Source: Chloroflexota bacterium
GTDB taxonomy: Bacteria > Chloroflexota > Anaerolineae > Promineifilales > Promineifilaceae
Assembly: GCA_018004935.1 (NCBI GenBank)
Contig: JAGNBF010000079.1
Span: 1-36,879, forward strand
Length of the DNA: 36,879 nucleotides
Direction of reading: 5' to 3'
The notes below the pieces were generated by a model, which had not been told where the DNA came from, did no database searches, and saw nothing but the letters and a program-made list of their open reading frames with translations. How positions within the stretch are numbered: position 1 is the stretch's first letter; every line of letters starts with the position of its first letter. This document shows positions 30,508 through 32,667 of the stretch, one piece after another. Position numbers and translations under genes: made by a program.

Positions 30508-30596
30508 GTCGGTAACTACTAAGGCTCTTGCGGGCTGAGCATGTCGAAACCTTGTGTTGCCTTCGACAAGCTTAGGCCATAGCTTAGTGGTTGCAA
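30508..30596. repeat. Diverged copy of the 86-bp inverted-repeat element
   Basis: GGTAACTACTAAGGCTC on the left and AGCTTAGTGGTTGC on the right are inverted with mismatches; the interior has CATGTCGAAACC and GCCTTCGACAAGCTTAGG. Confidence 0.5.
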
Positions 30597-30661
30597 AAGT
30601 AGGCGCAAGCCACAAACTTGATGTATCCCTCGGAAATGAATCTGCAAGTGAGGTAACGAGC

Positions 30662-31414
30662 ATGAAAGTGATAATCGCGGGCGAATCGCCTTTAGTGGAA
30701 GAAGCGGCTGAATTCTGTATTCAGGCGGGCCATGATACGACTATGTATCTGGTAGAAGACTTTCTCAGTGCCATACAAAGCGGGTTTGTTTTGGAAGGTA
30801 CAGATGTGGATGTGGTGATAGAGGTGCATAATGAATCGCCAGCGGCTAAGCAAGAGCTGTTATTAGCGCTGGGTCGGGTGATTTCGCCGAATACCCTGGT
30901 GCTGACATCGGCTTTGGCTACCAGTACTACCCAGGCGGCGGCCTGGATGGTGGCCCCGGAGCGGGTGGTTGGTTTTGGTGTTGTGCCGCCCCTAGCCGAT
31001 ACGGGTGTGATTGAGATCGCGGCCGCGCTCCAGACCGTCCCTGAAGCCTTGACCTGGGCCACCCATTTTTGGCAGGGATTGGGGTTTGAGGTGGTGCAGG
31101 TAGCTGATGCCCCCGGGTTAGTACGGATGCGCACCATTGCCTGCCTGGTCAATGAAGCCGCCAGTGCATTGATGGAAGGGGTTGCCACACCCGCCGCTAT
31201 TGATCAGGCCATGAAACTTGGCACTAATTACCCCCATGGCCCCCTCAGTTGGGGGGATCTCATCGGTTTAGATACAATTCTAGGCGTATTAACGGGTCTT
31301 TTTACCGAGTATGGCGAAGATCGTTACCGTCCCTGTCCCCTTCTGCGCCGGATGGTCGCCGCCGGACAACTGGGACAAAAAAGCGGCCGCGGTTTTTATA
31401 GCAACCACAATTGA
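30662..31414 (+). CDS. 3-hydroxyacyl-CoA dehydrogenase homologue, probably degenerate
   Basis: A 250-residue protein matching 3-hydroxybutyryl-CoA dehydrogenases over its whole length. The C-terminal domain is well kept (CLVNEAASALMEGVATPAAI, NYPHGPLSWGDLIGLD, GRGFY). The functional positions of the N-terminal half are not: the Rossmann loop GAGTMG is replaced by AGESPL, the HFFNP region reads GVVPP so the catalytic His is missing, and the VNR Asn is replaced by Met in GLVRMR. I infer that it cannot perform the normal NAD-dependent reaction; a binding or regulatory role is possible. The ATG at 30662 has AGGT eight or so nt upstream; the frame opens earlier through a repeat. Two GCGGCCGC sites. 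Confidence 0.8.
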   Translation: MKVIIAGESPLVEEAAEFCIQAGHDTTMYLVEDFLSAIQSGFVLEGTDVDVVIEVHNESPAAKQELLLALGRVISPNTLVLTSALATSTTQAAAWMVAPERVVGFGVVPPLADTGVIEIAAALQTVPEALTWATHFWQGLGFEVVQVADAPGLVRMRTIACLVNEAASALMEGVATPAAIDQAMKLGTNYPHGPLSWGDLIGLDTILGVLTGLFTEYGEDRYRPCPLLRRMVAAGQLGQKSGRGFYSNHN

Positions 31415-31899: not shown

Positions 31900-32181
31900 T
31901 TATATTGAATCACGCGGATACCGTTCCACCCCTGGCTCAATAAACGCTTCAAATAATGCCAGAATTTCCCCTGGTTCTGCGTGTCGCCCCATTTCTTTCT
32001 TAGAATACAGCAGGGTATCATCCACTTTCACATCAAAGACGCCTTTACTCCCCATCACTAACTCAAAACGCGCAATAATGTGCTGATAATTTCTCAACAG
32101 GTCCTCCGTCACCCGGACGGCGCGTGCGCTGTAGTCTCAAGGCACACAATATTCAAGGGTAAGCGTATATTTTTTGTTCAT
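31900..32181 (-). CDS. SelW/SelT/SelH-like (Rdx family) selenoprotein with in-frame TGA
   Basis: A 93-residue thioredoxin-like redox protein, read from ATG 32181 through a TGA at 32139-32137 decoded as selenocysteine. The N-terminus MNKKYTLTLEYCVPU has the family CxxU redox motif (C12-U15) at the end of the first strand, and the remainder (ELVMGSKGVFDVKVDDTLLY, SKKEMGRHAEPGEILALF) is a full Rdx domain. Homologues without selenium carry Cys at this place. Frames match exactly across the TGA, and TAG lies three codons before the ATG, so no other start is possible. A GGAG lies 13 nt upstream. A SECIS-like hairpin lies at 32106-32120. Ordinary calling would report only 70 residues from the GTG at 32112. 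The genes selA, selB, selC and selD are not in the window. Confidence 0.88.
32106..32120 (-). promoter_or_regulatory. Bacterial SECIS-like hairpin in the selenoprotein gene
   Basis: On the mRNA CCGUC-CGGGU-GACGG forms a 5-bp stem with a 5-nt loop whose second base is G. The loop begins 21 nt after the UGA. These match the known bacterial pattern, a G in the first two loop positions and 16-37 nt spacing. Coding sequence and hairpin overlap, as usual in bacteria. Confidence 0.7.
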
Positions 32182-32194
32182 AAGTTTCTATTTA

Positions 32195-32315
32195 CTCCTG
32201 AGAAAATAGCCACGGATAGTGGAAACACGGATAGGAAGAAACACGGATAGGAATGAAAAATGGTGGCGTTATTTTCATTCCTCTTGGTGTGCCGTAGGCT
32301 CATGGGGAACTCCTA
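32195..32315 (+). repeat. 120-bp inverted repeat, left copy
   Basis: CTCCTGAGAAAATAGCCACG to CATGGGGAACTCC. Its inverse complement, about 90 percent identical by eye, is at 35881-36000. Together they bracket the metalloprotease gene. The left edge supplies the GGAG before the selenoprotein start. Confidence 0.8.
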
Positions 32316-32667
32316 CGAAAATGTAGGGCGATTTTACCAAATCGTCCTACAGGTTTTCATTCCTCCCTTCGGCAAGCTCAGGTCAGGCTTGGTAAGCGTT
32401 CCGTTCATGGGGAACCCCTTTGAAAACGGCTCCTGATATGAAGAAACGCGGATAAGGAATGAAAGCAACTGGCCTTATGGATGAAACTATTTCTTGGTTC
32501 GAGCCAGTAGATCCGATTACATCCATTCGGCCTAATCCCCATAAAAAAGTATAGCGAGATAAAGGTTTAGATTCAATATAGGTATAATTTATAGTTTGTG
32601 TCTAGATGTTCTACAAGGACACATAATATTTCTCCACCGATAGTGGGGCCAAAGCAAAGGAGCTAAA
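32316..32667. other. Leader region of the metalloprotease gene
   Basis: A hairpin TGTAGGGCGAT/ATCGTCCTACA (32322-32351), further fragments of the CATGGGGAAC repeat near 32403-32417, and TATAAT at 32583-32588 as a candidate -10 box without a good -35. No gene is seen. Confidence 0.5.

Follow-up and report, generated by a model that had tools for sequence, protein, structure and literature searches.

A predicted SelW-like selenoprotein gene with an in-frame UGA and a downstream SECIS-like hairpin in a Chloroflexota genome

A minus-strand reading frame in the contig analysed here (hereafter the window, a stretch of 36,879 nucleotides that forms contig 60 of a draft Chloroflexota assembly of 7.98 Mb, 96.6% complete) extends from an ATG at 32181 to a TAA at 31902-31900 and contains a sole in-frame TGA at 32139-32137, raising the question of whether this triplet ends a gene, damages one or is translated as selenocysteine (Sec). 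A preliminary description of the locus favoured translation as Sec in the frame EYCVP-TGA-DYSARAV, and both its coordinates and its motif are reproduced exactly in the translation, the product being MNKKYTLTLEYCVPUDYSARAVRVTEDLLRNYQHIIARFELVMGSKGVFDVKVDDTLLYSKKEMGRHAEPGEILALFEAFIEPGVERYPRDSI. The features of the locus are:

31900..32181, minus strand: predicted gene for a SelW-like (Rdx) selenoprotein of 93 residues with Sec as residue 15; the coordinates include the TAA
32137..32139, minus strand: in-frame TGA predicted to be read as selenocysteine (C-V-P-U), conserved as TGA, with a Cys codon at that place in five homologues
32195..32199, minus strand: AGGAG, a probable Shine-Dalgarno sequence lying 13 nt upstream of the ATG, farther away than in most relatives
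32106..32120, minus strand: bacterial SECIS-like hairpin with a CCGUC/GACGG stem and the apical loop CGGGU, showing conserved pairs and covariation

When translated through the TGA, the protein matches the Pfam Rdx domain (PF10262; Bitscore: 60.2; cut-off: 22.6; e-value: 2.2e-16) and the NCBIfam model CXXU_selWTH (TIGR02174; Bitscore: 50; cut-off: 34.2), in agreement with the earlier claim of a frame that continues through the TGA into a complete Rdx domain. This gene, with its one internal TGA, is the only match in an Rdx search of the whole genome. Its CxxU motif contains an in-frame UGA, and homologues of the Cys type have Cys in place of the U. Two solved Rdx proteins, 3dex and 2fa8, align with the product and share its domain, but carry a CxxC motif, with Cys opposite the Sec, and do not need the Sec machinery. 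The Cys residue expected opposite the TGA is thus seen both in these two proteins and in the five Cys homologues. Among the NCBIfam models the best e-value was obtained with SelTWH_Campy (NF041051; e-value: 1.4e-21), but the score of 76.5 bits falls below the model cut-off of 88, and the window protein is therefore not assigned to this subfamily. On the strength of these sequence comparisons and those described below, we hold it to be very nearly certain that the window gene encodes a SelW-like selenoprotein of the Rdx family; the UGA would be read as Sec by means of a downstream hairpin.

The preliminary description had implied a Sec system elsewhere in the genome and named the absence of selC or selB as evidence that would count against its reading; selA, selB, selC and selD, the complete Sec trait, are all present in the assembly. 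The tRNA-Sec gene selC has the anticodon TCA and scores 63.2 bits, over the gathering score, with ARAGORN concurring; the assembly also contains selB (Bitscore: 363; cut-off: 242), selA (TIGR00474; Bitscore: 517; cut-off: 268) and selD (Bitscore: 376). The selD frame contains a TGA of its own in the motif SCAGUAAK, with a strong hairpin downstream of it (-18.7 kcal/mol), and selD is itself a predicted selenoprotein gene (L019; G000:C207:94470-95402, minus strand). Furthermore, a peroxiredoxin-like (AhpC-TSA) gene on the minus strand (L070 200-655; G000:C22:31799-32254) has an in-frame TGA in HFGUIFC, giving a UxxC motif, and encodes a probable third selenoprotein. Given selABCD and three genes with a Sec-type in-frame TGA, the organism has the Sec trait, with three or more predicted selenoproteins. 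No SelB match over the cut-off was found in four draft genomes that carry the SelW-like gene (G002, G027, G029 and G038); the co-occurrence of SelB and the gene carries no information, since SelB is found in almost every relative.

Among the 59 genomes searched for relatives of the gene (58 related genomes and the window's own), homologues are present in 35 of the 58, each with an in-frame TGA (36/36 when the window gene is counted). Residues Y11, C12, U15, Y17, G47, F49, S60, K61, R66, H67 and E72 are invariant in 25 aligned sequences. A class-wide sample of 249 genomes yielded 114 matches from 110 genomes, and 109 of the 114 contain an in-frame TGA, its position being verified only in the loci that were read out. 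In the five exceptions the codon at precisely the site of the TGA is TGT or TGC, and one of these homologues, L054, is otherwise a typical SelW with the GRHAEPGE segment. Only three loci were recovered when a collection of contigs was scanned with a single SelW-like protein as query.

These comparisons bear directly on the alternative explanations of the TGA. A pseudogene, or a sequencing or assembly error by which an ordinary codon was turned into TGA, would fit a TGA confined to one draft assembly; the remainder of the window frame is, however, intact, and the identical TGA at the CxxU site is found in every homologue read from 29 relative genomes (29/29 loci translated), with the protein downstream of it conserved. 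Because the relatives share this TGA and the Cys forms have a Cys codon in its place, an error or pseudogene, which the preliminary description had already considered unlikely, is excluded with a confidence bordering on certainty. A genome-wide reassignment of UGA to a standard amino acid, which would permit read-through without selenium, is extremely improbable. No support for it was found in this analysis, tRNA-Sec and SelB exist, and TGA terminates eight of the 23 long open reading frames of the window as well as many SelW homologues that also have an internal TGA (e.g. L023, L028, L031, L033, L034, L036, L039, L041 and L043), from which it follows that UGA has not been reassigned.

A further alternative, in which a shorter gene begins at the GTG at 32112, after the TGA, and the TGA is the ordinary stop of something else, agrees with the starts to which a gene caller using translation table 11 is confined; such a caller would miss or truncate the window gene and its homologues. 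Starting there would, however, cost the protein its first beta strand as well as its CxxU motif, both among its most conserved parts, with Y11, C12, U15 and Y17 invariant; the GTG itself sits in the loop of the hairpin. The preliminary description had allowed that homologues might normally start at this position. Instead, they start 10-15 codons before the TGA, mostly behind a Shine-Dalgarno-like sequence. This rules out the GTG after the TGA as the genuine start and leaves this alternative with a negligible probability. The interpretation of 31900-32181 first put forward is thus supported, and the window almost certainly contains a SelW-like gene with a Sec-coding TGA, as in its relatives.

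The putative SECIS element is formed by nucleotides 17-21 after the TGA (CCGUC; 32120-32116) and 27-31 (GACGG; 32110-32106), which enclose the 5-nt loop CGGGU (32115-32111). A hairpin with a G-containing loop had been described as starting 21 nt after the TGA; this holds for the loop, whereas the stem already begins 16 nt after the TGA. In the published model of bacterial SECIS elements, a loop of 3-9 nt with a G in its first two bases closes an upper stem of 4-16 bp at 16-37 nt from the UGA, with an MFE of ≤ -7.5 kcal/mol (PMC13188914). The window hairpin, which is kept in relatives, fits this model, as the comparison with bacterial SECIS spacing in the preliminary description had anticipated: five base pairs, a G in the second position of the loop CGGGU, a distance of 21 nt and an MFE of -11.9 for the 45 nt after the UGA. 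The energy value varies with the stretch that is folded, the hairpin segment alone giving only -6.7 to -7.5 kcal/mol. Stability above that of shuffled sequences was not found for the single window hairpin (z -0.7 and -0.05), and 6-41% of the TGA triplets in the window, depending on the strictness of the rule, precede some SECIS-like hairpin, so that the hairpin is a weak argument on its own; a hairpin at this exact place occurs after nine of 1,265 window TGA triplets. An Rfam scan of the window found only two tRNAs. The assignment rises above chance through the Rdx match that spans the TGA, together with the conservation and covariation of the hairpin in relatives.

All five pairs are formed in 35 of 42 Sec loci (27/32 in a first set and 8/10 in a further one), the stem being incomplete in seven, and in none of the five Cys loci. 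The strongest pair between codon third positions in the region, 18/30, is formed in 27 of 31 sequences compared to an expectation of 21.0 from shuffles that ignore the relatedness of the sequences (p 1e-4) and occurs as C-G, U-A or G-C. The five sequences with U-A are scattered on the protein tree, corresponding to five changes, on a topology in which most forks are weakly supported. The class SECIS consensus, CCGUC-CGUGU-GGCGG with the loop starting 21 nt after the UGA, is nearly fixed.

With the frame intact, the family membership clear, the TGA and hairpin conserved and the Sec machinery of the genome complete, we infer that Sec is inserted at the window UGA. SelB carrying GTP and Sec-tRNA(Sec) would bind the hairpin that closely follows the UGA and deliver selenocysteine once this codon is in the ribosomal A site, after which translation would run on until the TAA (31902-31900). 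The product would be a small protein of thioredoxin-like fold, in which Cys12 and Sec15 probably form a reversible selenenylsulfide and take part in thiol or peroxide redox chemistry. Such a redox role is suggested by the motif and fold family, and a redox partner is likewise presumed.

Bacterial SelW-like CxxU selenoproteins have been known since at least 2005, and formed the most abundant selenoprotein family in the Sargasso Sea survey, with 48 genes (PMC1088965). A 2026 review includes SELENOW-like proteins in its Table 1 (PF10262; CxxU), as 'predicted with high confidence' (PMC13188914). The window gene resembles this family in its Rdx domain, the CxxU motif near the N-terminus, the in-frame UGA, the SECIS element inside the coding sequence and the presence of selABCD in the genome. 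It differs in its lineage (Chloroflexota, Anaerolineae), which is no difference of kind, and thus adds a new member while leaving knowledge of the family unchanged. The YCVPU and GRHAEPGE segments are common to its own taxonomic family.

Very few or no Cys homologues of SelW-like proteins have been reported in Sec-using organisms (PMC1794560), a scarcity which the pattern in this class resembles. Given that the Sec form makes up 109/114 of the sampled matches and that the minimal SECIS is nearly fixed, we tentatively raise the possibility that in this class the Sec form is ancestral and has been strongly retained, and that a single hairpin, short and conserved, is what the SelB of the lineage recognises. 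Dependence on selenium appears to be shared by a large group of Chloroflexota, most of them uncultivated, and the Sec homologues, together with five natural Cys forms that have no full hairpin, constitute a clean comparative set for SECIS recognition. Second copies in two genomes (L064 in G240 and L065 in G258) are divergent Rdx paralogues with C-x-E-U (TGA), in which the GRHAEPGE segment is absent and the hairpin is the same as in the SelW homologues. MAG contigs bearing the labels Acidimicrobiales and Gammaproteobacteria also contain homologues with a TGA (L052 and L053), which may reflect mislabelling or gene transfer.

Downstream of the selenoprotein gene, and convergent with it, lies a 3-hydroxyacyl-CoA dehydrogenase gene (30554-31414). 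The same arrangement is found in 12 loci, comprising the window and 11 relatives, and this neighbourhood supports orthology while giving no hint of function. The region upstream of the gene (32222-32470) is non-coding and contains short direct and inverted repeats, with GAAACACGGATAGGAA present twice in tandem along with a diverged copy, as well as repeats of ATGGGGAACYCCT.
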